Shown here piece by piece: positions 17,750-44,440 of a stretch of 64,000 nt of DNA. A program made the position numbers and the translations under genes. Under the pieces are notes generated by a model. The model was given only the letters and a program-made list of their open reading frames with translations, was not told the origin of the DNA and made no database searches. Origin of the DNA: an uncultured Burkholderiales bacterium (GTDB lineage: Bacteria; Pseudomonadota; Gammaproteobacteria; Burkholderiales; Burkholderiaceae_C). The stretch's first letter is position 1; every line of letters starts with the position of its first letter. The stretch is from NCBI GenBank assembly GCA_903838355.1, contig CAILYC010000030.1, forward strand, positions 62,001 through 126,000, written 5' to 3'.

Positions 17750-17763
17750 TTGATTCAAAGCAA
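17750..17763. promoter_or_regulatory. Degenerate FNR-like site in the porin/cytochrome intergenic region
   Basis: TTGATTCAAAGCAA differs from the FNR consensus TTGATnnnnATCAA at one position. It lies 137 bases upstream of the porin start and 104 bases before the perfect site at 17867. It may be a decayed duplicate or a weak second site. Confidence 0.3.
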
Positions 17764-17866: not shown

Positions 17867-17880
17867 TTGATTCAAATCAA
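17867..17880 (+). promoter_or_regulatory. Perfect FNR box upstream of the cytochrome-barrel gene
   Basis: TTGATTCAAATCAA matches the FNR consensus fully and is identical to the box upstream of ccoI. If centred at -41.5 it predicts transcription from about 17915, and TAGGAT at 17903-17908 sits where the -10 element should be. This argues for the ATGs at 17940 or 17946 as start and against the GTG at 17883, which would lie upstream of the transcript. Confidence 0.75.
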
Positions 17881-17939
17881 GAGTGCCTCAAACCCCAAGC
17901 CCTAGGATGGATGCACCTTCAACCCATTGCCATCGGCCC

Positions 17940-19310
17940 ATGAACATGAGTTTGCCCCTTGAGTCCAAGTCCTCGGCCCAGTCAAGCCACAACTTGACGT
18001 CGGGGTGGCTTTTGTCAATCACCAGCACCCTCTTGGTACTGACACCCTCATCGAGCCAGGCCGTACCAGCATTTGCCCGGCAAACCGGTCAAAACTGCAT
18101 CGCCTGTCACGCTGGCGGTCAATTCCCGGAGCTCACCCCCTACGGTAGGCTTTTTAAATTGACAGGCTACACCATTGGCGAGCGCACCCTGCCCTTGTCG
18201 GTGATGGCGTCCGGTGGTCTCACAAGCGTCTCCAAGATCGCAGCCGTCAACCAAAGCCTGGTCAACAACACGTCTACGGGCTTGGATCTTCCGCTCAAAA
18301 ACAAACAAACCAGCCTAGACATCGCCAGTTTATTCATCGCGGGCAAAGTCACCGACAACATTGGGCTCTTTTCTCAAATCACCCATGACCGCTACAGTGA
18401 AGTCGACGACCAAGGCCTCAACAATCAAGGCCACACCACAGGGGATAACTTTGATTTGAGGTGGGCTGACCAATGGCTCTTGTCTGGTCGTGAATTCATC
18501 TATGGCGTGTCATTGAACAACAACCCCTCGGTGAGTGATCCTTGGAACACCAGTTGGGCGTGGATGCAATATGTACCCTCTTCATCTGGCCCAGGCGCCA
18601 ACGCTTATTTGGACGCCAACACACCCTACGCGAGTTCTGGCCTACCGGGCGACCTCTATTCAGGGCTCAGCACTTACCTGTTTTGGAACAAATCCTATTA
18701 CGGCGAAATCGGTTTTTATCGATCGGCCAGTCGCCTCTTGCACTTCATGAATTTTGGCAACGATCCCAACGCTTCCATTCTTCAAGGCAACAGCAACCGC
18801 TATTGGCGCTTTGCCTACAATCACGAGTGGGGGTCCAATAACCTCATGGTGGGCACCTCGGGCATGGCCGCCCACCCCTATGACAGTGCCAATGGGGTGT
18901 CGAGCAGTGACGCTTTGAGCTACCAAGGTGTGAAAAATGTTGGCGTGGACACGCAATACCAATACCTCTTGGATCCGCACACCTTCACCGTTCAAGCGGT
19001 CGTGCAAAAACAAAATTTCACGCCCTCGGTCTGGGACGCGACGCTCAATGGCAACACGCCAAGCACCACCCGCGTGAGTCGAGTGAAATTCTCCTATGTC
19101 CACGCCGCTCGCAACGGCGTGAGCTTTGCAAACTTCAATCAAAACGGCGGCTTTGCCAGTGCAACCCAAGGCAACACATTGGAGGTGTTTCACCTGCCCG
19201 TGCAAAATATTCGCATCGGCTTGCAAATGACTTTTTACAGCAAATTGGCCAACATCGACAGCCCCAGCAACGCCAACTCCGCCAGGCTTTACTTTTGGGG
19301 GGCGTATTGA
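17940..19310 (+). CDS. Cyc2-like fused c-type cytochrome/outer-membrane beta-barrel protein
   Basis: About 456 residues. A signal peptide ends near SSSQA, followed directly by a monoheme segment with Cys53-x2-Cys56-His57: PAFARQTGQNCIACH, then FPELTPYGRLFKLTGYT. This FARQTG...CxxCH...FPELTxxGRxFKLxGYT pattern is the hallmark of the N-terminal cytochrome of Cyc2, the outer-membrane iron oxidase. The remaining ~380 residues alternate amphipathic strands with Gly/Asn/Ser-rich turns and end in RLYFWGAY, like a 16-strand porin domain. It could pass electrons between an extracellular donor and periplasmic cytochromes. Iron oxidation is a hypothesis, since unvalidated homologues may have other roles. 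It is probably FNR-activated and cotranscribed with the next gene. Confidence 0.78.
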   Translation: MNMSLPLESKSSAQSSHNLTSGWLLSITSTLLVLTPSSSQAVPAFARQTGQNCIACHAGGQFPELTPYGRLFKLTGYTIGERTLPLSVMASGGLTSVSKIAAVNQSLVNNTSTGLDLPLKNKQTSLDIASLFIAGKVTDNIGLFSQITHDRYSEVDDQGLNNQGHTTGDNFDLRWADQWLLSGREFIYGVSLNNNPSVSDPWNTSWAWMQYVPSSSGPGANAYLDANTPYASSGLPGDLYSGLSTYLFWNKSYYGEIGFYRSASRLLHFMNFGNDPNASILQGNSNRYWRFAYNHEWGSNNLMVGTSGMAAHPYDSANGVSSSDALSYQGVKNVGVDTQYQYLLDPHTFTVQAVVQKQNFTPSVWDATLNGNTPSTTRVSRVKFSYVHAARNGVSFANFNQNGGFASATQGNTLEVFHLPVQNIRIGLQMTFYSKLANIDSPSNANSARLYFWGAY

Positions 19311-19979
19311 ATGAAAGGCCCCACCCCCATGACCCACTTTTTCAAATACTCTTGGTCCCTGTGCTTGGCGCTCAGTCTTGGGGCTTGTAGCAACATCGAG
19401 CGCTCGCGTGATTTGTCCAATCCCCGTGTGGCTGGTGCTACCTTGGCTCAACAAGTGTGCTCCACCTGCCATGGCGCAACGGGCAACTCCATCTCGCCCC
19501 AGTTTCCCAATTTGGCAGGACAGCAAGAAGCCTACTTGGTCAATCAGCTCCAAAACTTCAAAGGCCATCAGCGCATGGATCCGCCTGGGCCCGAGTACAT
19601 GTGGGGATTAAGCCGACGGCTCACCAATGCGCAAATTGAGGACATCGCCCACTACTTCGCAAACCAGGTCCACGTGGCCCGAACTGACCAGACCCCCATG
19701 AGCAAGACCGAACAGGAATACCAAATCGGCTTGAACATTTACACCCAGGGCATCCCTGAAAAGTCCATCCCAGCATGTCAGTTGTGCCATGGACCTCACG
19801 CCAAAGGCCTGGCCACCTTTCCAAGACTGGCGGGTCAGCACAAGGACTACCTGGTTCGACAGTTGCACGTGTTCCAAGAAACCGAGTTCAGACCCAACAC
19901 CCCCATGACGCAAATTACCCACCAATTGGATGCACAGCAAATGAGCGATATTGCCATCTATCTCTCAAGAATGCCCTAG
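19311..19979 (+). CDS. Diheme cytochrome c lipoprotein (c4-like)
   Basis: A 222-residue cytochrome whose ATG follows the upstream stop codon without a gap, so translation is probably coupled. The signal ends in a canonical lipobox LGAC (Cys26) with Ser next, which predicts anchoring to the outer membrane facing the periplasm. There are two class I heme sites: Cys50-x2-Cys53-His54 with PQFPNLAGQ, and Cys156-x2-Cys159-His160 with FPRLAGQ. This two-domain layout is that of cytochrome c4. It is well placed to take electrons from, or give them to, the cytochrome-barrel protein and to shuttle to a terminal oxidase. Confidence 0.88.
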   Translation: MKGPTPMTHFFKYSWSLCLALSLGACSNIERSRDLSNPRVAGATLAQQVCSTCHGATGNSISPQFPNLAGQQEAYLVNQLQNFKGHQRMDPPGPEYMWGLSRRLTNAQIEDIAHYFANQVHVARTDQTPMSKTEQEYQIGLNIYTQGIPEKSIPACQLCHGPHAKGLATFPRLAGQHKDYLVRQLHVFQETEFRPNTPMTQITHQLDAQQMSDIAIYLSRMP

Positions 19980-20992: not shown

Positions 20993-21226
20993 AGGGAGTC
21001 TTTGTTTAGAAAAGTTAAGAAGAACAAGTTCATTTTAGTCTGTGCGCGAAAGACGCCTTGGTTGAATCCCAACAATCTCCTAGAATGAAGTTCTGCCCAC
21101 GCGCACAGCACCGCGCCTTCTCATCGTCAAGACATGCGCTATTCGCCCCTAAGCCCCTGAGCCCCTGAATTGTCCGCCTTTCAAAAACAACGTCAACAAA
21201 CTGCACAACACGACAAAGGAAAAATC

Positions 21227-22243
21227 ATGGAAACACTTCAAAAATCTGCCCCAAATGTTTGCCATCTTTTGCAACGCACCGCACTGATCGCCTTGTTCAT
21301 GAGCGGCTTAGGCGCGCTGAGCATTGCACAAGCGGCAAGCGACGTCAATTGGCCCACGAAGCCCATCACCCTCGTGGTGCCCTTTGCACCGGGCGGCACC
21401 ACCGACATTTTGGCGCGCGACGTGGGTCAAAAAATAGGTGAATTCTTAAAGCAGCCCGTCATCATTGACAACAAGGCCGGTGCTGGCGGCACCTTGGCCG
21501 CGGGCATCACGGCCAAGGCGACCCCAGACGGCTACACCCTCTTCATGTCCACCATTGCCCACACCATTGCGCCGGGGCTCTATAAATCCTTGAACTACGA
21601 CTTCACGACCGACTTTGATCCGATTGGCATGGTGGCCATCACCCCCAATGTGCTGATCGTGAATAAAAATTTACCTGTCAAAAACGTGGCCGAATTCATT
21701 CAGTACCTTAAAGCCAATCCAGGCAAAGTCAACTACGGCTCGGCTGGCTCGGGCAGCACCGAGCACTTGGCCGGCGTCCTCTTTGGCATGCTGACGGGTA
21801 TCAACCTCACCCACGTGCCCTACAAAGGGGGCGCGCCCATGATGAACGACTTGATGGGCGGTCAAATTCAAATGGCCATTGAAACCAGCCCCTCAGCCTA
21901 CCCCCAGGTCAAAGCGGGCAACGTGACGGTCTTGGCCGTCACCACCCTCAAGCACTCGAGCGCCTATCCGGGCGTCCCAACGCTCGATGAAAGCGGCGTG
22001 AAGGGCTACGACTTCGTGACTTGGTTTGCCTTGATGGCGCCCCATGGCACACCAGCAGCAATTCAAACCCGCTTGGTTACCGAACTCGCCAAAACCCTCA
22101 AGGACCCCAAAGTCACCAAAGACTTTGAAGAGCAAGGTGTCAGTCCTGGGAATATGCCCACCGTACAGTTGGCCTCGTTCATCAAATCTGAAACCCTCAA
22201 ATGGGGCAAAGTGGTCAAAGAGTCGGGTGCGAGCGCCGACTGA
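21227..22243 (+). CDS. Bug-family tripartite tricarboxylate transporter (TTT) receptor
   Basis: A 338-residue periplasmic receptor from the ATG at 21227, which has AAGGA upstream; the frame itself opens at 21170. The signal peptide ends at SIAQA. The family start WPTKPITLVVPFAPGGTTDILAR is followed by PVIIDNKAGAGG, HVPYKGGAPMMNDLMGGQIQ and a late GVPTLDES. Bug proteins bind carboxylated compounds through the GGxxD loop and deliver them to TctAB-type membrane partners, none of which is in the window. Upstream, TTGGTT and TAGAAT at 21058-21086 with a 17-base gap form a possible promoter. Confidence 0.88.
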   Translation: METLQKSAPNVCHLLQRTALIALFMSGLGALSIAQAASDVNWPTKPITLVVPFAPGGTTDILARDVGQKIGEFLKQPVIIDNKAGAGGTLAAGITAKATPDGYTLFMSTIAHTIAPGLYKSLNYDFTTDFDPIGMVAITPNVLIVNKNLPVKNVAEFIQYLKANPGKVNYGSAGSGSTEHLAGVLFGMLTGINLTHVPYKGGAPMMNDLMGGQIQMAIETSPSAYPQVKAGNVTVLAVTTLKHSSAYPGVPTLDESGVKGYDFVTWFALMAPHGTPAAIQTRLVTELAKTLKDPKVTKDFEEQGVSPGNMPTVQLASFIKSETLKWGKVVKESGASAD

Positions 22244-22764
22244 TCTTGCCTCACCACACCCGACCTCTCCAACCCTGCGGCCAACGGCGTGAGCGCGCGT
22301 GACCTTTGTTGTGAGCGACGCCGAGCCTTGCGGATTGGTGCCACTTGACAAAACTCCATCTGTCCTCCATTTGCTCGGTCACCTCGGCGGTTTTTTTGAT
22401 CATTGCCCTAGGCTTTGGAGTGACCTGTCTTGGGGTTTTTTAAAAAGGAGGACATTCATCTTTTGGGTAAGTGGGTGCGCCCATTGCACCGATTGTCTTG
22501 GATAAATTGCTGCTCCACCCCGCTGCCGTGCTCGTCTCCACAGTGCTCTGCTTCTTTGCGCTCAGTGCGCTGCTGTATGGACTTGAACATCATCCAGGTT
22601 TTTGAGCACGTCAGCCTCACTAGACGTTGATTGAAGCGAGGTGCACTTTTTCAGCCCCATCAGCCCCATCAGCCACCACCTCAATCAACGGTGTTAGCCC
22701 TAGTGGCAAATCTTTTGCTCCTATCTAGAATGAGTGTTTTTGCAACTTCATCTCTAGAGTACCC
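22244..22764. other. Gap of about 520 bases without a supported gene
   Basis: Only short out-of-register frames are present. Homopolymer runs (around 22390 and 22437) and a repeated CATCAGCCC motif near 22657-22675 are visible. TAGAAT at 22726-22731 might be a -10 element for the GlcG-like gene at 22765, but no good -35 is present. Confidence 0.4.
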
Positions 22765-23235
22765 ATGACCATTATCTCCATGAAAGAAGCCGACGACATT
22801 TTGAATGCCGTCTTTATCAAAGCTCGCGAACTCAAACTACGCCCCATCTCTGCGGTGGTGGCCGAACCTGGCGCCATCCCCAAAGCCTACAAAAAAGAAG
22901 ATGGCTCGGCCATGCTGCGCTTTGAGATGGCCATGGGTAAGGCCTATGCCGCCTTGGCACTGGGACGATCAACCAGTCTCATTGTGGAGAGAGCGCACGA
23001 GCGGCCACTTTTCATGAGCTTCATGTTCAAAGCGTCTGAGGACAAAATCTTTGCTGAAGGCGGTGGCATGCTCATCCGTGACAAGTCCGGTGAAGTGATT
23101 GGTGCACTGGGCGTGACTGGCGACACGGCCGCCAACGACGAGTTGCTGTGCGCCTATGCCATTCGTGCAGCGGGCTTGCTCACCGACCACGATGCAGTCG
23201 CCTTGGGTGTTGAGGTAAGACTCACCAACATCTGA
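22765..23235 (+). CDS. GlcG/HbpS heme-binding family protein
   Basis: A 156-residue protein covering the whole GlcG/HbpS domain. It has the N-terminal helix ISMKEADDILNAVFIKAREL, the AVVAEPGAIPKAYKKEDGS strand pair, AMGKAYAAL, and the conserved GGGMLIRDKSGEVIGALGVTG turn with the CAYAIRAAG helix. Typical residues are present, but no signal peptide is. Family members bind heme or small ligands and often accompany glycolate or aromatic-acid catabolism genes. It lies between two Bug receptor genes on the same strand, which suggests a link to uptake of an organic acid. Confidence 0.82.
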   Translation: MTIISMKEADDILNAVFIKARELKLRPISAVVAEPGAIPKAYKKEDGSAMLRFEMAMGKAYAALALGRSTSLIVERAHERPLFMSFMFKASEDKIFAEGGGMLIRDKSGEVIGALGVTGDTAANDELLCAYAIRAAGLLTDHDAVALGVEVRLTNI

Positions 23236-23281
23236 GTCTTACGAATGCCGTTGAGCCACATTCTTTGAAAGGCAAATCAAC

Positions 23282-24322
23282 ATGTTCACCTATGGGCACA
23301 TCCCTGAACCACCCCGCACGAAGGCGTTCCATCGAATCCGTGCTTTGATCGGCACCTTGCTGCTTGCTAGCATTTGTGCCCTCACCGTTCAAGCCACGGC
23401 AAGTCTTGCCGTCCAGCCGAACTACCCGATCAAAACGGTGCATTTGGTGGTGCCCTTTGCCGCTGCAGGCGGGGTTGACACTGCCGCACGCATCATTGGA
23501 CAGCGCTTGTCTGAGGTGTGGTCTCAATCAGTCCTGATCGACAACCGAGCGGGTGCCAACAGCGTCATTGGCACCGACTTTGTGGCCAAATCGGTGCCCG
23601 ATGGACACACACTCTTGGTGGTGTTTGGACCGCCCTTCAACACGGTACAATTTTTTGCTAAAAACGTGCCCTACCAGGCCCTCACCGACTTCACACCAGT
23701 CTCAATTGTGGCCACCGTTCCCATGGTGGTGGTGGTTCCTCCGAGCCTGGGCGTCAGTACAGCCGCAGAATTGATCGAGTACGCCAAAGTTCACGCCGGT
23801 CAAGTTTCATTTGGGACCTCAGGAGCAGGCAGCTCACAGCAACTCGGTGGTATTTTGCTGGGCATTGCCGGTGGGGTCACATTCACCCACATTCCCTACA
23901 AGGGTGGATCGGCCGCATTGAACGATGTGCTCGGCGGCCATGTGCCTGTGGGCATTTTGGCGCTCTCCAATGTGATCCCGTATGTGAGGTCTGGCAAACT
24001 CAAAGCGATCGGGGTGATCGAATCTCATCGCAGCACCTCTGAGCCGCTCATTCCAACGATTGCTGAAGCGGGGGTGGCAGGTTTTGCGGTACCCGACACC
24101 TGGGTTGGGTTCCTTGCACCCGCAGGACTACCCAAGACCGTTTTGGACAAATTAAGCCAAGACATTGCTTTAGCAGTGGAGAGCGCCGAGGTGAGACAAA
24201 AACTCGAGGGAGCAGGCTTTGAGGTGTCGATCAAAGGTCCGGATGTTTTCAAAGACATTTTGGCCAAGAGCATCGCGTTGTACAAGAAGACCACCACAGA
24301 GGCAGGCATCAAACCGGAATAA
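23282..24322 (+). CDS. Bug-family TTT receptor
   Basis: A 346-residue receptor with AAAGG eight bases before the ATG. A longer N-terminal region precedes the signal segment (LIGTLLLASICALTVQATA). The family start is YPIKTVHLVVPFAAAGGVDTAARI, with Ala-Ala in place of the usual Pro-Gly before the GGxxD loop. SVLIDNRAGANS, HIPYKGGSAALNDVLGGHVP and PTIAEAGVAGF follow. It sits 46 bases after the GlcG-like gene and is probably cotranscribed. The ligand is unknown and no TctAB partner is nearby. Confidence 0.88.
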   Translation: MFTYGHIPEPPRTKAFHRIRALIGTLLLASICALTVQATASLAVQPNYPIKTVHLVVPFAAAGGVDTAARIIGQRLSEVWSQSVLIDNRAGANSVIGTDFVAKSVPDGHTLLVVFGPPFNTVQFFAKNVPYQALTDFTPVSIVATVPMVVVVPPSLGVSTAAELIEYAKVHAGQVSFGTSGAGSSQQLGGILLGIAGGVTFTHIPYKGGSAALNDVLGGHVPVGILALSNVIPYVRSGKLKAIGVIESHRSTSEPLIPTIAEAGVAGFAVPDTWVGFLAPAGLPKTVLDKLSQDIALAVESAEVRQKLEGAGFEVSIKGPDVFKDILAKSIALYKKTTTEAGIKPE

Positions 24323-24417
24323 GCAAAAGGGTGGCTTCGCAGCTTTTAGGCATTGGATAGAATTTTTCCGAATCAAAGGCAGGCTGCGGCACGACACCCA
24401 TTGACACGGCAAAGAGC

Positions 24418-25452
24418 TCACTGATCAATTGAAATTTTTGCCTGCTCGATGATTTTTCTCCAACGTTCTGTCTCAGACTTGATGAAGTTCTCGAACTGCA
24501 AAGCCGTACCAGGCATCGTTTCTGCTCCTTGAGAGAGCAGTTTTACTTTGAACTGTGGATTGGCCAAAATCACTTGCAACTCAGCATTGAGCCGTGTGCG
24601 AATGGATGGCGCCATGTTGGCTGGACCAATGAGACCATACCATGTCGCCATGTCATAACCCGGGACACCGGCCTCAGACATGGTGGGCACTTGCGGCGAA
24701 GCGTTCGACCTCTTGGCGGTGGTCACCCCCAAAGCGCGCAAGGTTCCAGCATTGACTTGGGGCAAAGCGCTTGGGATATTGGGGAAACTCATGTCGACCT
24801 GGCCCGAGATCAAATCGGGCATGGCGCTACCTGTGCCCTTGTAAGGGATGTGCACCATAGAAATGCCAGCCATTTTGGCGAACAACTCGCCCGAGAGGTG
24901 CACCGAGGTGCCGCTCCCGCTTGACGCAAACGTGAGCGCCCCAGGATGCGCTTTGGCAAAGGCCACCAGTTGTGCCACCGTGTGAAAAGGCGACTTGGCC
25001 GGCACCACCAACATATTGGGCGCTGAAAACACTCCCCCAATGGCGGTGAAATCGGCCACTGGATCAAAGCTCAAATTCTTGTAAAGCGTTGCATTGACCG
25101 CATGCCCAATGGAGGGGAAGTACAGGGTGTAGCCGTCAGCTTGAGCGCGCGCAACCATCTCGGCGGCGATGTTGCCGTTCGCGCCAGCACGGTTTTCCAC
25201 AATGACGGGTTGCCCCAAGCGAAGCGACAAATTCTCCGCCAGGGCTCGGCCCACCCCATCGGCCGATCCTCCAGGAGAAAAACCGACCACCAAACGAATG
25301 GGCTTGCTCGGGTAATTGGCCTCTTGCGCACAGCAGGAGAAAGCCAAGCCCAAACTGAGGCTCATGCACAATCCAAATTCCAAGAGCAGCTTGCCCCAAC
25401 CACCCATGAGAACTCGATTCGATGCTCGCTCTTCCAATTTCAAATGCTTCAT
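24418..25452 (-). CDS. Bug-family TTT receptor
   Basis: A 344-residue receptor. The ATG at 25452 has AAAGGAG seven bases upstream, so it is preferred over the frame opening at 25503. The signal segment LLLEFGLCMSLSLGLAFSCCAQ contains two Cys near cleavage but no standard lipobox. The family start YPSKPIRLVVGFSPGGSADGVGR is followed by PVIVENRAGANGN, HIPYKGTGSAMPDLISGQVD and PTMSEAGVPGYDMATWYG. It begins one base after the CoA-transferase B stop, so it is the third gene of a CoA-transferase operon; the ligand may be the acid that the transferase activates. Confidence 0.88.
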   Translation of the reverse strand: MKHLKLEERASNRVLMGGWGKLLLEFGLCMSLSLGLAFSCCAQEANYPSKPIRLVVGFSPGGSADGVGRALAENLSLRLGQPVIVENRAGANGNIAAEMVARAQADGYTLYFPSIGHAVNATLYKNLSFDPVADFTAIGGVFSAPNMLVVPAKSPFHTVAQLVAFAKAHPGALTFASSGSGTSVHLSGELFAKMAGISMVHIPYKGTGSAMPDLISGQVDMSFPNIPSALPQVNAGTLRALGVTTAKRSNASPQVPTMSEAGVPGYDMATWYGLIGPANMAPSIRTRLNAELQVILANPQFKVKLLSQGAETMPGTALQFENFIKSETERWRKIIEQAKISIDQ

Positions 25453-25453
25453 G

Positions 25454-26119
25454 TCAACTCCTTTGTGCCATAGCAACGCCCGTGAGATCGTGCAACTGCT
25501 CAAAACTCAAACCCTCAACCCAGTCAAGTGCGACGAGCCCTTGGGCGGTGACCTCAATGGTGGCAAGGTCCGTGTAAATGCAGTCAACTGCTTCAAGCGC
25601 GGTCAAGGGATAGGTGCAGCGCTCAACAATTTTGGATTGCCCCGACTTCGTCAAGTGCTCCATCATGACAAAAAGTTTTTTCACACCCAGGGCCAAATCC
25701 ATGGCGCCCCCTACCGCTGGAATGGCTTTGGGGTCTGCCGTTCGCCAGTTGGCCAAATCGCCTTTGACCGAAACTTGAAATGCCCCGAGCACACAACAAT
25801 CAATGTGCCCGCCTCGAATCATGGCAAAGGAGTCCGCGTGATGAAACAGCGCCGCGCCAGGCAGCATGGTCACCGCCTGTTTGCCTGCGTTCACGATATC
25901 GGGATCAATCTGCTCGCCCACGGCCAAGGGTCCCATCCCAAGCAAGCCGTTTTCGCTATGGAGCAAAATCTCACGGTCCGGGGGCAAGTGATTGGACAAG
26001 CTCATGGGCTGACCAATGCCCAGGTTGACATGCGCGCCATCCGGAATGTCTTGGATGATGCGTTGGGCGATTTGTGCCTGGCTGCGGCGCACAACGTTTT
26101 GAAGGAAGGCATGGGTCAT
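25454..26119 (-). CDS. 3-oxoacid CoA-transferase subunit B (ScoB/PcaJ type)
   Basis: A 221-residue beta subunit. It has the NLGIGQPMSL loop, the catalytic Glu in LLHSENGLLGMGP, and VKGDLANWRTADP, VGGAMDLALGVKKLFVMMEH and CTYPLTALEAVDCIYTDLA, all standard for subunit B. The ATG overlaps the subunit A stop as ATGA, which fixes the start at 26119 and implies coupled translation. With subunit A it transfers CoA from succinyl-CoA to an acid such as 3-oxoadipate or acetoacetate. The PcaD-like gene at 33058 makes 3-oxoadipate an attractive but unproven substrate. Confidence 0.88.
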   Translation of the reverse strand: MTHAFLQNVVRRSQAQIAQRIIQDIPDGAHVNLGIGQPMSLSNHLPPDREILLHSENGLLGMGPLAVGEQIDPDIVNAGKQAVTMLPGAALFHHADSFAMIRGGHIDCCVLGAFQVSVKGDLANWRTADPKAIPAVGGAMDLALGVKKLFVMMEHLTKSGQSKIVERCTYPLTALEAVDCIYTDLATIEVTAQGLVALDWVEGLSFEQLHDLTGVAMAQRS

Positions 26120-26793
26120 AGGGCACCTTGGGGCTGAACACAAACCACCCGTTGAACATAGACACCCGGGGTCACCACATGCTCCGGATTTAAACTACCC
26201 AAAGGCACAATGCGACTCACTTGCACCACGGTGCAAGCGGCAGCTGTCGCCATCACCGGTCCATAGTTGCGCGCGGTGCCGTGATAGATCAAATTGCCAT
26301 AGCGGTCCGCCAGCTCAGCTTTGATCAGCGCCACATCGGCCTTGATGGCTTTTTCAAACACCTGGTGCACGCCATCGATCACCTTGACCTCCTTGCCCTC
26401 ACCGAGCTCCGTGCCGTAGCCGGTGGGTGTGAAAAAGCCCCCGATGCCCGCACCTCCTGCTCGAATGCGTTCGGCCAAGGTGCCTTGCGGCACCAGTTCG
26501 AGTTCGATCTCTCCGGCACGGTAAAGATCATCAAAGGCACCCGACTCGGGCTGCCTTGGAAACGAGCAAACCATTTTTTGAACGCGCCGAGCAAGAACCA
26601 GCTTGGCAATACCCACACCCCCATTGCCCGCGTTGTTGCTCACGATGGTCAAGTTTTTGGCACCACTCTCGAGTAAAGCATCTAACAAGGCGAGCGGCAA
26701 GCCCGCCCCACCAAAGCCCGAGACCAAAATGCTCGAGCCGTCGGCCACCCCACTCACCGCGTCTTGAACTGTCGCGACTATTTTGTTGATCAA
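26116..26793 (-). CDS. 3-oxoacid CoA-transferase subunit A (ScoA/PcaI type)
   Basis: A 225-residue alpha subunit with the CoA-binding glycine-rich segment ILVSGFGGAGLPLALLDAL, SNNAGNGGVGIAKL, the ELVPQGTLAERIRAGGAGIGGFFTPTG block and ALIKAELADRYGNLIYHGTARN. The first codon is TTG at 26793, supported by GGAG eight bases upstream. It overlaps subunit B by four bases. The gene order on the minus strand is Bug receptor, subunit A, subunit B, Bug receptor, suggesting joint uptake and CoA activation of a carboxylic acid. Confidence 0.88.
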   Translation of the reverse strand: MINKIVATVQDAVSGVADGSSILVSGFGGAGLPLALLDALLESGAKNLTIVSNNAGNGGVGIAKLVLARRVQKMVCSFPRQPESGAFDDLYRAGEIELELVPQGTLAERIRAGGAGIGGFFTPTGYGTELGEGKEVKVIDGVHQVFEKAIKADVALIKAELADRYGNLIYHGTARNYGPVMATAAACTVVQVSRIVPLGSLNPEHVVTPGVYVQRVVCVQPQGAL

Positions 26794-26835
26794 TTCTTCG
26801 CTCCTCTTTTTACAAAACCACCGCGACCCAAGCCA

Positions 26836-27840
26836 TCAATCGAAATGCAGACCCGCCGCTTTAACGCTTTGTGCCCAAGCCGCCTGCTGAGCCTTGATGT
26901 AGGCCTGCACCTTGGCCGGCTCACCGCCAATGGGTGAACTGCCCTCCTCGGCCAATTGTGCGATGAATGCCGGGTCAAGCAAGACCTTTTGCACCGCAGC
27001 GTTGAGCTTTCTCACCACCTCTGGTGGCGTTGAGGCAGGGGCCACCACCACCTTCCAATCCACCGCCTCAAACCCAGAATAGCCCAACTCCGAGACGGTG
27101 GCCACACCTTGGAGGGAAGACACTCGCTTTGATGAGGTGCTTGCCAAAACCCGCAGACGTCCCCCCGCAATCAAACCCATGACCGCCTGGGGGGTGGCAA
27201 ACATGCAATCGGTCTGGCCACCGAGCAAATCGGTGATGGCTGGTGTCGCCCCCTTGTAGGGCACATTCAAAAATTCCAAGCCTGCGCGTTTGGCGAGCAT
27301 CTCTCCCGCCAAATGTCCCACGGTACCCGTTCCTGCCAATGCGAGCGAGATGCGCGCAGCCCCCACGGTTTTAACACTGGCGGCTTTGATCACATCGCCC
27401 AAACTCAGGTAAGGCGAATCCGCCTTCACCACCAAGACCGTGGGCAGTTCGGCCACCAAAGCCACCGGTAACAAATCGGTTTGTGGGTCAAAGGGCATTT
27501 TGAGCATGGCCGCGGGATTGATCGCCATGTTGGAGGTTTGACCCATGCCCAGGGTATAGCCATCGGGCTTGGATTTGGCCACCCCATCGAGGCCCAAGTT
27601 GCCACTGGCTCCAGCCCTGTTATCAATGATGAACACCCACTGCGTGTTAGTGCTCAAACGCTCCAATAAATGACGCGAGACCACATCGGTACCGCCGCCC
27701 GGCGTGAACGGCACGACGAAATGAATGGGTTTATCGGGCCAGGTATTTTGCGCATGAGACAGCGATGCAGCCAAGACGCCTGCCAGGCATATACCCATCG
27801 CTTGAGCCACTGGACCAAAAACTGTCCCAGAGTGATTCAA
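26836..27840 (-). CDS. Bug-family TTT receptor, overlapping the CaiB-type CoA-transferase gene
   Basis: A 334-residue receptor. The TTG at 27840 overlaps the upstream TGA as TTGA and has GGGAG seven bases before it, so start and coupling are well supported; the ATG at 27798 is an alternative. The signal segment ends at SLSHAQ. The family start WPDKPIHFVVPFTPGGGTDVVSRHL is followed by VFIIDNRAGASGN, NVPYKGATPAITDLLGGQTD and ATVSELGYSGFEAVDWK. The ligand is probably the acid handled by the CaiB-like enzyme. Confidence 0.87.
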   Translation of the reverse strand: MNHSGTVFGPVAQAMGICLAGVLAASLSHAQNTWPDKPIHFVVPFTPGGGTDVVSRHLLERLSTNTQWVFIIDNRAGASGNLGLDGVAKSKPDGYTLGMGQTSNMAINPAAMLKMPFDPQTDLLPVALVAELPTVLVVKADSPYLSLGDVIKAASVKTVGAARISLALAGTGTVGHLAGEMLAKRAGLEFLNVPYKGATPAITDLLGGQTDCMFATPQAVMGLIAGGRLRVLASTSSKRVSSLQGVATVSELGYSGFEAVDWKVVVAPASTPPEVVRKLNAAVQKVLLDPAFIAQLAEEGSSPIGGEPAKVQAYIKAQQAAWAQSVKAAGLHFD

Positions 27841-29081
27841 GGCTTCACTCCCAGGGCTTCGATTTCTTGGGCCGTGAACCCCAAGCCACGCAAAACCTCT
27901 TGGTTGTGTGCCCCCAAGGCGGGTGCCGATGACCTCACCCCCAAGCGTTGTCCTGCGAGAGTGATGGGCAAGAGAGGGGCCCAGGTTTGCACGCCATTGG
28001 CCAAAGTGATCGGGGCCAAACCGCCACTTGCCAACAAGTGCGGATCGTCAAAAAGATCCTGGGGCTTGGTGATCGGCGCAAAGGGCAGTCCATGCTGCTC
28101 GAAACATTCGGAGATTTGCCGCGCTGAAAAACCACTCAAGCGCTGTCTTAGGAGGGGCATCATCCACTCGCGCGCTTGCACCCTCAGGTTGTTGGTCGTG
28201 AGCCTTTCATCGGCCAGCAAGTCCTCAAAACCAAAGGCCCCACAAAAGAGGCCCCAAGCCGTGTCGGTCACCACCGCCAAGAACACTTGCTCGCCGTCTT
28301 TAAAATCAAACACATCATAAATGCCCCAGGCCGATACCCGAGCCGGCATGGGTTGAGCAGCCTTGCCCGTCACCGCAAACTGCATCATGTGCTGGGCCAT
28401 CAAAAAGACATTGTTTTCAAAAAGCGCGCTTTGAATCTCTTGGCCACGACCGGTTTTCTCGCGTTCGGCCAGGGCCGCCATCACTCCCAAGGCACCAAAC
28501 ATGCCGCCCATGATGTCGTTCACGCTCGAGCCCGCCCGCAAGGGGTCTCCGGGTCTGCCCGTCATGTAGGCCAAGCCCCCCATCATTTGCACGACCTCGT
28601 CCAAGGCAGTGCGATGGTCATAGGGTCCTGGCAAGAAACCTCGGTGACTCGCATAAATCAAACGCGGGTGCGCAACCTTCAAGCTCTCATAATCAAGCCT
28701 GAGTTTTTTCATGGCACCGGCCTTGAAGTTCTCGCACACCACATCGGCCGAGCCAATCAGTCTCTTGGCAGCAGACAAACCTTCAGGGGTATCGAGGTTC
28801 AAGGCCACGCTTTTTTTGTTCCGATTGAACATTGGAAAAAAACCCGCACCGGATCCTAGCAAATCGCGCGTGGCATCGCCTTTTTTCTGCCCCCCCAGCG
28901 GCTCGACCTTGATCACCTCGGCCCCCATGTCGGCCAAGATCATGCCGCAAGTCGGCCCCATCACCATGTGGCTGAACTCCACCACGCGAAGTCCAGCGTA
29001 AGGCTGAGGGAAGGTTGGCGGCTCGTTGACGCCGTTGTCTTCGTCACTGAGTTTGTCTGAATGGGCAACTGGGGACATCAT
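27837..29081 (-). CDS. CaiB/BaiF family (class III) CoA-transferase
   Basis: A 414-residue class III CoA-transferase. It has the N-terminal block GLRVVEFSHMVMGPTCGMILADMGAEVIKVEP, the SVALNLDTPEG segment, VVCENFKAGAMKKLRLDY, and the catalytic Asp161 in the HRTALDEVVQMMGG stretch that aligns with the Asp of formyl-CoA transferase. Such enzymes move CoA between acids (formate/oxalate, succinate/itaconate or mesaconate, carnitine). It probably forms interlocked dimers in the cytoplasm. It lies between two Bug receptor genes and is translationally coupled to the downstream one. Confidence 0.9.
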   Translation of the reverse strand: MMSPVAHSDKLSDEDNGVNEPPTFPQPYAGLRVVEFSHMVMGPTCGMILADMGAEVIKVEPLGGQKKGDATRDLLGSGAGFFPMFNRNKKSVALNLDTPEGLSAAKRLIGSADVVCENFKAGAMKKLRLDYESLKVAHPRLIYASHRGFLPGPYDHRTALDEVVQMMGGLAYMTGRPGDPLRAGSSVNDIMGGMFGALGVMAALAEREKTGRGQEIQSALFENNVFLMAQHMMQFAVTGKAAQPMPARVSAWGIYDVFDFKDGEQVFLAVVTDTAWGLFCGAFGFEDLLADERLTTNNLRVQAREWMMPLLRQRLSGFSARQISECFEQHGLPFAPITKPQDLFDDPHLLASGGLAPITLANGVQTWAPLLPITLAGQRLGVRSSAPALGAHNQEVLRGLGFTAQEIEALGVKP

Positions 29082-29100
29082 GGTGAAAAGTGAAAATCGG

Positions 29101-30090
29101 CTATTCGATGCGAATATTTTTGTCGTGGATGATCTTGGACCACTTTTGCGACTCGGATTTGATGAATAGCGAAAACTCTTCTGGCGAATTGCTCACGGGC
29201 TCCGTGCCCATGGCCAGCATGCGCTCGCGAATATCGGGCAAGGCGAGCACCTTGGCGATCTGCGTGTTCAACCGAGCCACCGCCTCTTTGGGCGTTCCCA
29301 TGGGCAGCACCATCCCATACCAATTGACGATCAAGTACCCTGGCAAGGACTCTCCCAAGGCAGGAACATCGGGGAGCACGCCCAAGCGCTCCTTGCCCGT
29401 GCTGGCCAATGCGCGCAAACGCCCGCTTTTGACATGCGGCAAGAGCGGTGCACCGGCCTCAAAGGTGAACTGCACCTGCCCTGAGATCACATCGCTGATG
29501 CTGGGCGCACTCCCTTTGTAGGCGATGTGCACCATGTCAACGCCCGTCATGCTCGAGAGCAACTCACCGGCCAAATGCGGAAGCCCACCCGTACCACTCG
29601 ACGAATAATTGAGTTTCCCGGGATTGGCATGGGCATAGGCAATGAACTCGGCCATGGTTTTGACGGGAAGCGCCGGGTTCACCACCAACAAAAACGGCAC
29701 CGATGCAATTTGCGTCAATGCCATGAATTGCTTGTCGAAATTGAAGGGCAAATTGGGATAGAAATTGGGGTTCACACTCAGGTTGCCCAAGGTACCCAAA
29801 AAAATTGTGTAGCCGTCGGGCGCCGATTTGGCCACCGCGTCCATCCCCAGCACCCCATTGGCGCCAGGCCGGTTGTCAATAACGACCGACTGACCGAGTA
29901 CTTCGGTGAGCTTAGGGGCCATCATGCGCGCCACAATATCAATTCCACCCCCAGGCGGGAATCCAATCACGATGCGAATGGGTTTATTGGGATAGGTGCT
30001 GGCAATGCTTTGTGCATGAGCACTAAAAGTCGCAAAGCACAAAATACCCAGGGTGACCCAAAACCAAGACAGAACGCGAGAGAAAAACAT
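29101..30090 (-). CDS. Bug-family TTT receptor
   Basis: A 329-residue receptor. The ATG at 30090 is preferred because AAGG lies seven bases upstream and it gives a normal signal peptide (FFSRVLSWFWVTLGILCFATFSAHAQ); a GTG at 30114 is the outer limit of the frame. The family start YPNKPIRIVIGFPPGGGIDIVAR is followed by SVVIDNRPGANG, HIAYKGSAPSISDVISGQVQ and PALGESLPGYLIVNWYG. It ends 19 bases before the CaiB-type gene. Ligand unknown. Confidence 0.88.
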   Translation of the reverse strand: MFFSRVLSWFWVTLGILCFATFSAHAQSIASTYPNKPIRIVIGFPPGGGIDIVARMMAPKLTEVLGQSVVIDNRPGANGVLGMDAVAKSAPDGYTIFLGTLGNLSVNPNFYPNLPFNFDKQFMALTQIASVPFLLVVNPALPVKTMAEFIAYAHANPGKLNYSSSGTGGLPHLAGELLSSMTGVDMVHIAYKGSAPSISDVISGQVQFTFEAGAPLLPHVKSGRLRALASTGKERLGVLPDVPALGESLPGYLIVNWYGMVLPMGTPKEAVARLNTQIAKVLALPDIRERMLAMGTEPVSNSPEEFSLFIKSESQKWSKIIHDKNIRIE

Positions 30091-30206
30091 AGCGGGCCTT
30101 GCAAAAAAGAACACAGCGAGATGGCTCCCTCGGATTGTGTTCTGAAAAGCCGGTCTTTGTCATTAGGAAAATAACCTAGCCAAGAGCGACCCAAGACACC
30201 CCCCCA

Positions 30207-31202
30207 CTACTGCGCTTGCACACCCGTGACTTTGATGATGTGATCCCATTTGCTGAACTCGGCCTTGATGAAGGCTTGAAACTCCCGGCCGACAAGGTCT
30301 GAGGTTTGCAGGCCCTGGGCCAACAACTCGCTCTGAACCTGAGGGTCTTGCAATGAGGCGCGCAAGGCGCGGGTCAGGCGCTCTGTCGCGATGGCCGGCG
30401 TGTCAACTGGGGCAAACAGGCCAAACCAGAGCACCGCCTCAAAGCCAGGAAAGCCCGATTCGGCAACGGTGGGCAGTTCGGGCAAGATGCTCAAACGCGA
30501 CTTGGACGTCACCGCCAAAGCGCGCAAATGACCACTTCTGATTTGGGTCAGCACCGGCGAGACCGAGGAGAACTGGAAATTCACGACGCCTGACATCGTG
30601 TCCGTCACCGACTGCGCCGAGCTCTTGTAAGGAATGTGTCGCATCTCGATGTGGGCCGCAAGAGAAAAAAGCTGGGCCGACAAATTACCCATGCTGGTCA
30701 CCCCGGCAGAGGCATAGGTCACCCGTCCTTTTTCAGCTTTGGCTTCGCTTAGAAAATCATTGAAATTTTTGAAACCATGCGCACCCGAGGTCACCAAAAT
30801 ATAAGGGGAAGAGGCCATCATGCCAATCGGCACAAAGTCTCTTGCAGCGTCATAAGAAATGCTCGAATTCAAAAGTGGCCCCACCACTTGCGTGCTCACC
30901 GTGCCCAGCAAAATGGTGTAGCCATCGCCCGCACTGTGGGCGACGACGTCTGAGCCAATGTTGCCACTGGCGCCAGTGCGATTGTCCACCACCACAGTTT
31001 GCGATAACAAGGCAGCCATCTTGTTAGCCACCACCCTGGTGGCAGCATCAGTCGCACTGCCGGCTTGAAACGGCACCACGAGCTTGATCGCACGATTGGG
31101 CCAAGCCCCTTGGGCTTGTGCACACTCACCCACCATGACAGCGCACAACACCAGCAAGCCTAACGTCCACAGGCTCGCAGTTTGGGAAAATCCAGTATTC
31201 AT
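30207..31202 (-). CDS. Bug-family TTT receptor
   Basis: A 331-residue receptor from the ATG at 31202; the frame opens at 31328, inside the neighbouring dehydrogenase gene, so the shorter form is more likely. The signal segment is TLGLLVLCAVMVGECAQAQ. The family start WPNRAIKLVVPFQAGSATDAATR has a variant loop (AGSATD in place of PGGxxD). TVVVDNRTGASGN, HIPYKSSAQSVTDTMSGVVN and PTVAESGFPGFEAVLW follow. It is probably cotranscribed with the upstream dehydrogenase and CMD-like genes. Confidence 0.86.
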   Translation of the reverse strand: MNTGFSQTASLWTLGLLVLCAVMVGECAQAQGAWPNRAIKLVVPFQAGSATDAATRVVANKMAALLSQTVVVDNRTGASGNIGSDVVAHSAGDGYTILLGTVSTQVVGPLLNSSISYDAARDFVPIGMMASSPYILVTSGAHGFKNFNDFLSEAKAEKGRVTYASAGVTSMGNLSAQLFSLAAHIEMRHIPYKSSAQSVTDTMSGVVNFQFSSVSPVLTQIRSGHLRALAVTSKSRLSILPELPTVAESGFPGFEAVLWFGLFAPVDTPAIATERLTRALRASLQDPQVQSELLAQGLQTSDLVGREFQAFIKAEFSKWDHIIKVTGVQAQ

Positions 31203-31275
31203 GCAAGAAACACCCAAGTTAAGTAAACAGCAACTCCAGATTGACGTCTTCAGGTCAACTTGGCTGCTCAAATGG

Positions 31276-32394
31276 TCACCTTGATCGCAGGTCCAGCGCC
31301 GCATCCATTTGATGCACCATTTGCTCAAAATCGAGCAAACCGTTTTGCCGGGGACTGCCCGCGGTGTGCGGGGTCAAGATGACATTGGGAAAGCCGAGCA
31401 ACTCGTCGTCATCGTCCCCTGGTTCCTGCCACAGCGTGTCAAGGGCAAAACCACCCAGTGTCCCATCCCTGAGGCCTGTCAATACAGCACCGCGCTCCAT
31501 GCATTGCGCGCGTGAGACATTGATCAAGCGCAGGCCTTTTTTCATGCGCCTGAAAGCCTCGCCATTGAGCAGTTCGTGGGTCGAGGGACCTGAGGGCAGT
31601 TGCACCACCAGCCAGTCGCTTTGTTCAAGCAGTTCTTCAAACGACACATACTTCACCTGGAGTCCCGACTCCAGCGCACGGTCAAGTTGCTCACGCTGCG
31701 AGTAAATCACCTTCATCTCAAATGCATTGGCACGCTTGGCAATGTCTCGACCCACTTCACCCAGGCCCAATATCCCCAGAGTCGCACCATAGAGGGTGTC
31801 CAAGTTGGGAATTCTCGCCCAGTTTGATGATGGGGTGTGACGGCGATCAAAAGGCGCGGGAGAAAATCCACCCTCTCGCAAACGCTTCAAGGAGGTCAAT
31901 TTGTTGATCTCGGGCAGTCGCTTGGCCAGCGCCAAAATCATCATCATGGCTTGCTCAGCGCAAGCGATATTGGCACGCCGACGGAGGGTGAGCAATTGAA
32001 CGCCGTGGCGAATGCACGCGGCTTCATCGATGTTGCGCACGATGTGGCCATATTTCTGAATCACTTGAAGCCTCGGGGCCTGAGACAACTCGCGCTCACC
32101 CACTTGCAAGGATTCAAGCACCAACACATCGGCGTCATGCAATGCCCTTTCAAGCTCATCTGAGGTGTTGACAAAACTCACCCGGCAGTCTTGCAAATGG
32201 CGAGTTTGCAGCCGCAGCCTCTTGGCCCAGTCTAAAAAGTCAGGTTGATCGTGGGCAAAAAAGTCTTGAAATGCCGCTAGCCTGTCTTTTTCACACTCGG
32301 CATTCAAGACGATGTCCAAGACCCGCATGAAGACATCGTTTTCGATCACAACATGAAGGCGCGCAGACAGCTCAAGGGTATGGGGCGTGTTCAT
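31276..32394 (-). CDS. D-2-hydroxyacid dehydrogenase (NAD-dependent)
   Basis: A 372-residue dehydrogenase of the phosphoglycerate/formate dehydrogenase fold. It has the nucleotide loop LGILGLGEVGRDI, the catalytic Arg in LINVSRAQCMERGAV, the Glu in LWQEPGDDDDE and the His in LTPHTAGSPR. The N-terminal substrate domain is longer than usual (about 60 extra residues). The ATG overlaps the stop of the CMD-like gene as ATGA. The two probably act in one pathway on a hydroxy- or oxo-acid, with the downstream Bug receptor supplying substrate. Confidence 0.85.
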   Translation of the reverse strand: MNTPHTLELSARLHVVIENDVFMRVLDIVLNAECEKDRLAAFQDFFAHDQPDFLDWAKRLRLQTRHLQDCRVSFVNTSDELERALHDADVLVLESLQVGERELSQAPRLQVIQKYGHIVRNIDEAACIRHGVQLLTLRRRANIACAEQAMMMILALAKRLPEINKLTSLKRLREGGFSPAPFDRRHTPSSNWARIPNLDTLYGATLGILGLGEVGRDIAKRANAFEMKVIYSQREQLDRALESGLQVKYVSFEELLEQSDWLVVQLPSGPSTHELLNGEAFRRMKKGLRLINVSRAQCMERGAVLTGLRDGTLGGFALDTLWQEPGDDDDELLGFPNVILTPHTAGSPRQNGLLDFEQMVHQMDAALDLRSR

Positions 32395-35275: not shown

Positions 35276-35289
35276 TTGATTCAAATCAA
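35276..35289 (+). promoter_or_regulatory. Perfect FNR box upstream of ccoI
   Basis: TTGATTCAAATCAA matches the FNR consensus in both half-sites and is identical to the site at 17867. It lies 77 bases before the proposed ccoI start. No strong -10 element is visible at the expected distance; TACTTT at 35302 is slightly too close. Confidence 0.75.
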
Positions 35290-35366
35290 AAAGAACCGGT
35301 TTACTTTGGTCCCTGAGCCACACACGACTCCAAAAACCCAAGGGTTTTCCATAAAATGAGCCCTTC

Positions 35367-37832: not shown

Positions 37833-37907
37833 GACGGAACTTGCCTTTTGCATCTTTCTGACATCACAAAACCCCCTAAACCAACACACCCTTTGTTTAC
37901 AACCACC

Positions 37908-38045
37908 ATGGATATTTTGTTCCTCCTCATCCCCTTGTCGGTGGCTTTGGTTTTGCTCATCTTGGGCGGTCTTTGGTGGGCTATTCACAGCGGGCAATTC
38001 GAATCTCTTGAGAGCGAGGGCGCGCGCATTTTGGACGACGATTGA
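37908..38045 (+). CDS. ccoS: CcoS, cbb3 oxidase maturation protein
   Basis: A 45-residue protein from the ATG at 37908. A single membrane helix (LFLLIPLSVALVLLILGGL) is followed by WWAIHSGQFESLESEGARILDDD. The W-A-I-x-S-G-Q-F-x-x-L-E-x-x-x-x-x-I-L-x-D pattern is diagnostic of CcoS. The protein is needed to insert heme and copper cofactors into CcoN. It lies between ccoI and ccoN, and an FNR box follows 18 bases after its stop. Confidence 0.92.
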   Translation: MDILFLLIPLSVALVLLILGGLWWAIHSGQFESLESEGARILDDD

Positions 38046-38063
38046 CTGTGGATTTGGTTGAAT

Positions 38064-38077
38064 TTGATTTAAATCAA
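38064..38077 (+). promoter_or_regulatory. Perfect FNR box upstream of ccoN
   Basis: TTGATTTAAATCAA fits the consensus in both halves. Its centre lies 62 bases upstream of the ccoN ATG; a start of transcription near 38112 is expected. It gives ccoNOQP its own low-oxygen promoter independent of ccoI. Confidence 0.75.
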
Positions 38078-38132
38078 ACGCCCCCAAACCCAAAAATAAG
38101 ACAATTTCACAAAAATCACAAGGACGCTCGGA

Positions 38133-40191: not shown

Positions 40192-40212
40192 ATCATTTTT
40201 CTGAGCAACACC

Positions 40213-40350: not shown

Positions 40351-40359
40351 GAATTGCCC

Positions 40360-41271: not shown

Positions 41272-41379
41272 TGCAGGCCCTGGACATCGCAACCAAAATT
41301 CTGATGGCTTGGCGCACCGTGTGTCACCATTGAACAACCCAATTGTGTTGCTTTTCTTTTCATTGCAACGCTTCATGAC

Positions 41380-43720: not shown

Positions 43721-44440
43721 TCAAGCGCAGGTTTGTGAATTCACTATCAAATTAAGGGCATCGGGGTCCAAAATATGAATATTGCGCTGCTTGACCGCAA
43801 TGACCCCATCGTCAGAGAGCTTGGAGAAGGTGCGACTCACGGTCTCGAGCTTGAGACCCAAGTAGCTGCCAATTTCTTCACGGGTCATTCGCAGCACCAA
43901 CTCTGTGCGTGAAAAGCCCCTGGCGTGAAGGCGTTTGACCAAATTAAGCAAAAAAGCCGCCAGTCTTTCTTCGGCGCGCATGCTGCCCAGCAGCAGCATC
44001 ACGCCATGTTCGCGCACGATTTCCTTGCTCATGATGCGGTGCACGTGGTGTTGCAAGGCCTTGACTTCACGCGAGAGGTATTCGATTTTGTCAAAGGGCA
44101 TGACGCAAATTTCCGCGTCTTCGAGAGCCACCGAATCACAACTGTGAAAGTCCGACACGATTCCGTCAAGACCGGTGATTTCACCTGCCATTTGAAAACC
44201 TGTGACTTGGTCGCGACCGTCTTCGGTGGTGATGCAAGTTTTAAAAAAACCGGTGCGAATCGCGTACAAGGAGGAAAAAGCGTCCCCATTTTGGTAGAGA
44301 TACTCGCCTCGCTTGATGCGACGCCGGCTCGCGACCAATTCGTCGATGCGCTCAATGTCGTCGTTGCTCAGCCCCATGGGCATGCAAAGCTCGCGCAAGT
44401 TGCAGTTTGAGCAGGCAATTTTAATGGCTTCAATATTCAT
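43721..44440 (-). CDS. fnr: FNR-type oxygen-sensing transcriptional regulator
   Basis: A 239-residue Crp/Fnr protein. The N terminus has Cys10-x2-Cys13-x5-Cys19, and Cys101 lies in DFHSCDSV, giving the four ligands of an oxygen-labile [4Fe-4S] cluster as in E. coli FNR. The dimer helix VKALQHHVHRIMSKEIV and the helix-turn-helix EEIGSYLGLKLETVSRTFSKL follow, with the E-x-x-S-R recognition residues that read TTGAT. It should be active at low oxygen and bind the boxes at 17867, 35276, 38064 and 44525. It diverges from hemN. Confidence 0.93.
   Translation of the reverse strand: MNIEAIKIACSNCNLRELCMPMGLSNDDIERIDELVASRRRIKRGEYLYQNGDAFSSLYAIRTGFFKTCITTEDGRDQVTGFQMAGEITGLDGIVSDFHSCDSVALEDAEICVMPFDKIEYLSREVKALQHHVHRIMSKEIVREHGVMLLLGSMRAEERLAAFLLNLVKRLHARGFSRTELVLRMTREEIGSYLGLKLETVSRTFSKLSDDGVIAVKQRNIHILDPDALNLIVNSQTCA

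Follow-up and report, generated by a model that had tools for sequence, protein, structure and literature searches.

The closest described relatives of the locus analyzed here are the Cyc2 proteins, which are defined by the motif AXPXFAR[Q/K][T/Y] just before a CXXCH heme site and by PXL four residues after it (PMC8406198). Fe(II) oxidation has been biochemically shown for one Cyc2 of each of three clusters, and Keffer et al. advise caution with distant homologues (PMC8406198). The gene order in the rus operon is cyc2-cyc1 (PMC10654088). Cluster 2 cyc2 genes are reported from the Leptothrix-Sphaerotilus group, with Cyc1 homologues in several Leptothrix genomes (PMC11412304), and from Sulfuriferula isolates growing on Fe(II), four strains of which have Cyc1 homologues (PMC12285272). 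Cyc2, its pairing with Cyc1 and the occurrence of Cluster 2 cyc2 in Burkholderiales are already known. Here we describe a 64,000-nucleotide stretch of DNA from an uncultured Burkholderiales bacterium (the window), in which a gene for a Cyc2-like cytochrome-porin abuts a gene for a diheme lipoprotein cytochrome, and a perfect box for the regulator FNR stands before the pair. The FNR wiring and the lipoprotein partner of a Cyc2-type protein are apparently new: as far as the text of the papers was accessible, a literature search found none that links cyc2 to FNR control and none that describes such a partner. We consider it fairly probable that the pair forms a Cyc2/Cyc1-type module for electron entry, induced by FNR.

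The cytochrome-porin and its diheme partner

The window comes from contig 30 of a genome that comprises 72 contigs and 2.74 Mb, with a completeness of 87.6%. The two genes and their elements are as follows.

17940..19310, + strand: Cyc2-like fused monoheme cytochrome-porin of 456 amino acids (P0002), from open reading frame, alignment, tree and AlphaFold2 model
18060..18086, + strand: Cyc2 motif AVPAFARQT, by comparison with the published consensus AXPXFAR[Q/K][T/Y] (PMC8406198)
18096..18110, + strand: heme c attachment site CIACH and, directly after it, AGGQFPEL (PXL after five residues), from the sequence
18195..19304, + strand: 16-stranded outer-membrane barrel, from the predicted structure
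19311..19979, + strand: diheme c4-type lipoprotein cytochrome of 222 amino acids, a Cyc1-like partner (P0001), from two CxxCH sites and matches in PDB and Pfam
19377..19388, + strand: lipobox L-G-A-C, with S rather than D at +2 and the family linker NIERSRDLSNP behind it, from the sequence and family comparison

The motifs of P0002 stand in the order AVPAFARQT, GQN, CIACH, which is the AVPAFARQT-x3-CxxCH arrangement of the published Cyc2 motif (PMC8406198). Its one CxxCH lies within AVPAFARQTGQNCIACHAGGQFPELTPYGRLFKLTGYT, and the signature of the protein reads CHAGGQFPELTPYGR. P0002 also has the single heme, a signal peptide (cleavable-looking and ending SQA, as judged by eye) and the length of at least 365 residues that are given for Cyc2 (PMC8406198). 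The AlphaFold2 model, from which the heme was omitted, has 16 barrel strands, with a predicted local distance difference test score (pLDDT) of 84.7 and a predicted template modeling score (pTM) of 0.84. It matches porins structurally, including OprP/OprO and general porins, as expected of a C-terminal 16-strand porin; OprP/OprO are the templates named for Cyc2 (PMC8406198). No Cyc2 stands among the 50 structural matches listed for the model, which we do not take as evidence. Family databases say little about P0002, for which Pfam returned no family and NCBIfam a sole match far under its cut-off; against PDB its sequence hit nothing but an antibody chain (E 0.12), from which no identity was drawn. 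P0002 is shown in silico to be a monoheme cytochrome fused to a predicted 16-strand barrel and to belong to the Cyc2 family, though not to its Cluster 1.

For comparison we used the best 80 of 424 relatives from the named genome collection. The motif was matched in 79 of these 80 loci (not in L091); counts of upstream boxes cover the 77 with at least 400 bases upstream, and counts of partner genes the 75 with at least 800 bases downstream. In the alignment of relatives, conservation is highest in the heme segment of the protein. The PEL of P0002 follows its CxxCH after five residues (AGGQF), and the same spacing holds in 79/79 relatives; it is four in Cluster-1-like proteins and three in the Cyc2 of a rusticyanin-type operon, so the exact PXL spacing varies within the family.

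The best solved relative of P0001 in a PDB search is cytochrome c-552 (1h1o, E 5e-33), followed by cytochromes c4, and Pfam Cytochrom_C covers the protein in two stretches, the two-heme-domain organization of c4 and c-552. We take 1h1o to be Cyc1 of Acidithiobacillus ferrooxidans, and the c4 entries 8smr and 8snh to be complexes with cbb3 oxidase. A diheme frame comes directly after the cytochrome-porin in 73 of the 75 relatives, the exceptions being L105, where the two hemes are split over two frames, and L149, which has no diheme frame. Among relatives with a diheme frame, whatever their flank, all 75 have a lipobox-like cysteine with an RSR-like linker a few residues on (56 found by pattern and 19 by eye, L152 among the latter), and none has Asp at +2; the LGAC-S of P0001 likewise marks a lipoprotein. 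Under the Lol rule of E. coli, a lipoprotein without Asp at +2 travels to the outer membrane. Because P0001 lacks this inner-membrane retention signal, it is predicted to be attached to the outer membrane on the side facing the periplasm. The nearest paralogue of P0001 in this genome is L195 (37% identity), whose signal peptide looks ordinary and which lacks a lipobox, so that the copy in the pair seems to be a dedicated protein.

The first-pass annotation had read this locus as a monoheme CxxCH segment joined to a barrel in the layout of Cyc2, starting at 17940 and followed with no gap by a lipobox-bearing diheme cytochrome suited to be its periplasmic partner. Its coordinates are correct: the ATG lies at 17940, the stop at 19310, and the next gene runs from 19311, with 0 bases between them. 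The layout is borne out by the motif, the single heme and the 16 strands of the model, which supplies the strand count for which that annotation had called. The diheme gene proves to encode 222 residues with two CxxCH sites and LGAC, and its partner role gains from the frame found next in 73/75 relatives and from the match to 1h1o.

In a clustering of neighbor families, the pair is the sole strongly conserved neighborhood among the relatives. No strong further neighbor emerged, the largest other families spanning 16 loci (judged from its position, a frame on the strand opposite the pair), then 12 and 11. In 11 loci, for example L141, a third gene after the pair encodes a product whose start is YceI-like, presumably a periplasmic protein of YceI type. 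The pair gives no signal of horizontal acquisition, because its guanine-plus-cytosine content resembles that of the window (0.540 vs 0.535). At 21170-31328, just downstream of the pair, the window holds a cluster of six genes resembling Bug-type (tripartite-tricarboxylate) receptors, together with genes resembling coenzyme A (CoA) transferases; both names are our assumption from the sequences.

The FNR box, in the window and across relatives

Upstream of the pair, and in a second region of the window, the following elements were found.

17867..17880, + strand: perfect FNR box TTGATTCAAATCAA, from a motif scan; its center lies 41.5 base pairs before a start site placed by spacing at about 17915
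17903..17908, + strand: putative -10 element TAGGAT at class II spacing, 36 bases on from the first base of the FNR box
17750..17763, + strand: imperfect FNR-like site TTGATTCAAAGCAA, from a motif scan with one mismatch; it could be chance
35276..35289, + strand: FNR box identical to TTGATTCAAATCAA, from a 14-mer scan, before a ccoI-type copper ATPase gene (35367-37832)
38064..38077, + strand: perfect FNR box, from a motif scan, before ccoN (38133-39575), ccoO, ccoP and ccoG (NCBIfam), which encode the cbb3 oxidase, the proposed electron sink
43721..44440, - strand: fnr, a regulator of the CRP/FNR family with N-terminal CxxCx5C, the likely regulator of the pair, from the sequence and NCBIfam

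The pair thus has TTGAT-N4-ATCAA at what would be the class II position, given a start site set by spacing, in a genome that encodes FNR, as expected of a member of the FNR regulon. Besides the boxes before the ccoI-type gene and ccoN, a third further perfect TTGAT-N4-ATCAA lies at 44525, before hemN. Allowing at most one mismatch, the window contains 10 sites of this pattern against 2.8 expected from shuffling; the 14-mer TTGATTCAAATCAA, at the same tolerance, has 5 matches against 0.09 expected, two of the five being both strands of one place. The fnr product scores 227.4 bits against NF008365 (Fnr; cut-off 228); its N-terminal cysteine segment CSNCNLRELC and its ETVSR recognition helix presumably have the meaning that they have in E. 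coli FNR. The genes ccoN, ccoO, ccoP, ccoG and hemN score above their NCBIfam cut-offs; the ATPase is a copper-type P-ATPase, here termed ccoI-type. Together with fnr, these genes make up a compact low-oxygen island at 35276-45978.

The box recurs before related genes. Within 500 bases of the heme codon, 15 of the 77 relatives have a perfect box and 36 have one with at most one mismatch; at 180-330 bases before the heme codon the counts are 14/77 for the perfect box and 37/77 for the relaxed form TTGAY-N4-RTCAA. As a control we took 386 other starts from these loci whose upstream DNA is intergenic, from which 1.4 perfect and 3.6 relaxed boxes would be expected; this control was counted over a wider, 250-base stretch and may include true FNR targets. 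Binomial probabilities against it are 1e-10 (perfect) and 1e-28 (relaxed), on the assumption of independent loci. Whole-locus density gives expectations of 0.04 and 0.15, a control too lenient for promoters, and the other-promoter control was taken as the fair one. An FNR-type box is therefore about tenfold commoner before the pair than before other genes of the same loci. The mean match to TATAAT over 38 boxed promoters, the window included, is best at offsets of 35-36 from the box start, reaching 2.0-2.1 of 6. This lies near the spacing of class II FNR promoters.

The distribution of the box is uneven. By type of cytochrome-porin, it precedes 42/104 genes of the CHxGGxFP type, 3/10 of the short type, 3/8 of the GFGP type, 0/4 of other types and 0/12 of the Cluster-1-like type; this count leaves out duplicate proteins, loci with fewer than 330 bases upstream, the truncated L027, the window itself and loci in which the motif was missing (among them L026, L028, L048, L091, L168 and L173). 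On the tree the box requires 19 changes for 23 boxed rows of 80, which means repeated gain or loss, and roughly half of the relatives are without it.

The earlier annotation had pointed to a perfect FNR box with the same 14 bases as the ccoI box and to a cbb3 oxidase encoded 16 kb away. The two boxes, at 17867-17880 and 35276-35289, do agree base for base, and the distance was roughly right, the ccoI-type gene lying 15.4 kb and ccoN 18.2 kb past the end of the pair. The proposed link to FNR is strengthened by the relaxed box in 37/77 relatives where 3.6 are expected, and by the fnr gene in the window. The wider idea of that annotation, a low-oxygen electron entry route that could feed the cbb3 oxidase, is partly supported.

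Family, tree and distribution

To place P0002 we built a quick maximum-likelihood tree of 82 rows, with support from the Shimodaira-Hasegawa-like approximate likelihood ratio test (SH-aLRT). P0002 clusters with L077 and L078 (support 99) and, with 21 more CHAGGQ rows, forms a set of 24 (99); the 41 CHAGGQ-type relatives in the tree are not a single strict clade (3 changes). The 11 Cluster-1-like rows (family codes f25, f38 and f39), whose Cluster 1 label is inferred from the motif and whose identity as Gallionellaceae and kin is likewise assumed, take their own side of the deepest branch (support 100); the tree tool warned of long branches meeting where L169 joins them.

Rusticyanin genes were sought in order to obtain an anchor near a validated Cyc2. 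A first search of 398 genomes gave none above the cut-off, and a second, of 369 genomes, gave one above it (G1100) and three more at E <=1e-15. G1100 was rejected as an anchor: its genome has no Cyc2 match, its contig ends shortly upstream of the rusticyanin gene, and the oxidase genes nearby were only guessed from frame lengths. The anchor used is L187 (G1154), where cyc2 is followed by genes for oxidase subunit I (434.7 bits, cut-off 670.75), a weak heme A synthase match (41.1, cut-off 550) and a rusticyanin-like protein (136.4, cut-off 146.7), all under their cut-offs; a 200-residue gene adjoining cyc2 has no CxxCH and no NCBIfam family. BLASTP aligns P0002 with this Cyc2 over its full length, with 26% identity over 441 columns (E 5e-32), and the tree puts the L187 protein on the same side as P0002, nearer to other types (support 80-90). 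In this tree P0002 is separate from the well-validated neutrophilic Cluster 1 type; Cluster 2 is its likely label, judged from its side of the tree.

With the genome of the window counted, homologues of P0002 occur in 26/200 genomes of the same family and 81/349 of the order. The relatives include members of Ramlibacter, Roseateles, Rhodoferax, Polaromonas and Rhizobacter, Sulfuricella sp. T08, a Gallionellaceae metagenome-assembled genome (MAG), Paraburkholderia ultramafica and many other MAGs. The P0002-type signature is present in the protein of Sulfuricella sp. T08 and in proteins of Sphaerotilaceae and Sulfuricellaceae. The published motif PXFAR[Q/K][T/Y] is kept in 56/79 relatives (out of L077-L156); in the others the residues FAR are replaced by FNR (21), FAN (1) or FAT (1). 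A published Cyc2 screen discarded sequences without this motif (PMC8406198). Such a filter would drop 23/79 relatives, and motif-filtered surveys therefore undercount the type.

Four other loci deserve mention in their own right. L065 (1468-2916) and L166 (1364-2800), of a group (f43) found mostly in small genomes of the same order (1.5-3.3 Mb), encode a divergent cytochrome-porin with CHVGGxxPQLTxLGR, also followed by a diheme lipoprotein-like gene. L162 (1182-2576) is a Cluster-1-like cytochrome-porin with a diheme gene next to it, unlike nine others with enough flank. L036 (CP084173.1, labeled an Acidithiobacillus ferrooxidans plasmid) carries a cytochrome-porin gene beside a transposase; in tblastn the Acidiphilium cryptum plasmid NC_009469.1 gives the same bit score and identity.

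Proposed role and comparison with known systems

Family, fold, gene pairing and promoter of the module are supported by computation; we infer the donor, the direction of transfer and the oxidase. At low oxygen, FNR would switch on the pair along with hemN and the cbb3 genes. In the mouth of the barrel, the heme plug would then accept electrons from a soluble donor outside the cell, for which Fe(II) is the likeliest candidate, and hand them to the diheme lipoprotein anchored in the outer membrane, from which they may reach the cbb3 oxidase either directly or via the soluble c4 paralogue encoded elsewhere in the genome. Where oxic and anoxic zones meet, the module would add to respiration in this apparent heterotroph, either as a form of mixotrophy or to detoxify iron, but would not sustain autotrophic growth. 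We prefer Fe(II) as donor on two grounds: it is what Cyc2 proteins have been shown to oxidize, and at neutral pH and little oxygen its biological oxidation can outpace the abiotic reaction.

Several observations weigh against this reading. The 87.6% complete genome has no match to RuBisCO, the sole carbon-fixation route checked, so that a lithoautotrophic iron oxidizer is unlikely and iron oxidation would be auxiliary. To our knowledge, Fe(II) oxidation has been shown for no protein with the P0002 signature. The gene is absent from the two genus mates shown, and its PXL stands five residues after the heme site vs four in the consensus (PMC8406198). As for the promoter, 40/77 relatives lack the relaxed box, so FNR control is not universal; the relaxed pattern and the 150-base position window were chosen after the first counts were known, and related loci are not independent, as the binomial probabilities assume. 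The -10-like peak is modest, since offset 41 also reaches 2.0 of 6. The GFGP (GFGPQL) type has a diheme partner in 0/8 loci and a relaxed box in 3/8 (L020, L021 and L030), and the box is thus not tied to the pair alone. The boxes could also serve another protein of the CRP/FNR family, such as a nitric oxide sensor.

The same wiring might serve a donor other than Fe(II), for instance Mn(II), humic substances in reduced form or some other soluble reductant present at the oxycline, which we regard as unlikely but worth weighing. The host is apparently a Burkholderiales-like heterotroph, to judge from the missing RuBisCO match and the six genes beside the pair that we take to encode Bug-type receptors, and the 80 relatives kept are mostly MAGs from the Burkholderiales and allied groups, among which we know of few iron oxidizers. 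Cyc2 may, moreover, have additional functions, as Keffer et al. note, but the demonstration of Fe(II) oxidation for one Cyc2 in each of the three clusters (PMC8406198) and the growth on Fe(II) of Sulfuriferula strains with Cluster 2 cyc2 (PMC12285272) speak for iron.

Reversed flow, in which FNR would induce the pair so that respiratory electrons leave a periplasmic c4 by way of the heme-plugged barrel for an external acceptor, strikes us as improbable. FNR usually activates alternative respiration, and P0001 weakly matches NCBIfam PdsA (37.9 bits, cut-off 330), a periplasmic diheme shuttle with a role in outward transfer; however, the pairing of Cyc2 with Cyc1 and the fact that cytochrome c-552 is the best match both suggest inward flow, and the outward conduits known to us use multiheme cytochromes. 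That the heme is structural or a sensor in a redox-gated porin, for an anion for example, fits the OprP/OprO-type and general porin fold and a barrel that makes up most of the protein, but is very doubtful when a diheme electron carrier is the only constant neighbor (73/75, against next families of 16, 12 and 11 loci) and the heme segment is the part most conserved.

Electron entry from Fe(II) under FNR control, if it is what the pair provides, has wider consequences. We give about even chances to the broader view that this is a widespread Cyc2 type of Burkholderiales and their kin, with an anchored diheme lipoprotein and wired into the FNR low-oxygen program, so that iron oxidation would be an inducible, undercounted auxiliary respiration of ordinary heterotrophs. 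An ordinary-looking heterotroph might then draw electrons from dissolved iron, and facultative heterotrophs would be partly responsible for iron oxidation at the oxycline. For one Cyc2-like group, the locus offers a concrete, testable account, with a conserved pair, a predicted anchored carrier and an enriched FNR box. Because isolates carry the pair (Ramlibacter ginsenosidimutans KACC 17527, whose locus L103 has a perfect box, R. aquaticus, Roseateles saccharophilus DSM 654 and Paraburkholderia ultramafica), its expression can be followed and its genes knocked out with no need for an obligate iron oxidizer.

Among the known systems, the Cluster 1 Cyc2 of Mariprofundus and Gallionellaceae shares with P0002 the fused cytochrome-porin layout and the core motif. 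It differs in that Cluster-1-like rows mostly read CxxCHxQHFPxLN and occupy a separate side of the tree, with a diheme gene in 1/10 and a box in 0/12. The likeness to Sphaerotilus-Leptothrix and Sulfuriferula lies in the betaproteobacterial Cluster 2 cyc2 with Cyc1 homologues reported there; in the parts of those accounts available to us, FNR control and a lipoprotein partner go unmentioned (PMC11412304, PMC12285272). P0001 resembles cytochrome c4 and Cyc1 (c-552, 1h1o) in its two hemes and two Cytochrom_C stretches, and departs from them in its lipobox and RSR linker. A close counterpart of P0002 is the Cluster 2 Cyc2 of the A. ferrooxidans rus type, with which it shares the motif, CxxCH, the 16-strand barrel and full-length similarity to operon Cyc2, as the pair shares with the rus operon the adjoining gene for a diheme c4-type cytochrome; on this side of the family, function is best shown in an acidophile. 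Unlike the rus type, the pair has no rusticyanin or aa3 oxidase genes beside it among the listed open reading frames, P0002 has a PXL spacing of five, and the pair combines a predicted outer-membrane lipoprotein partner and an FNR box with an apparently heterotrophic host.

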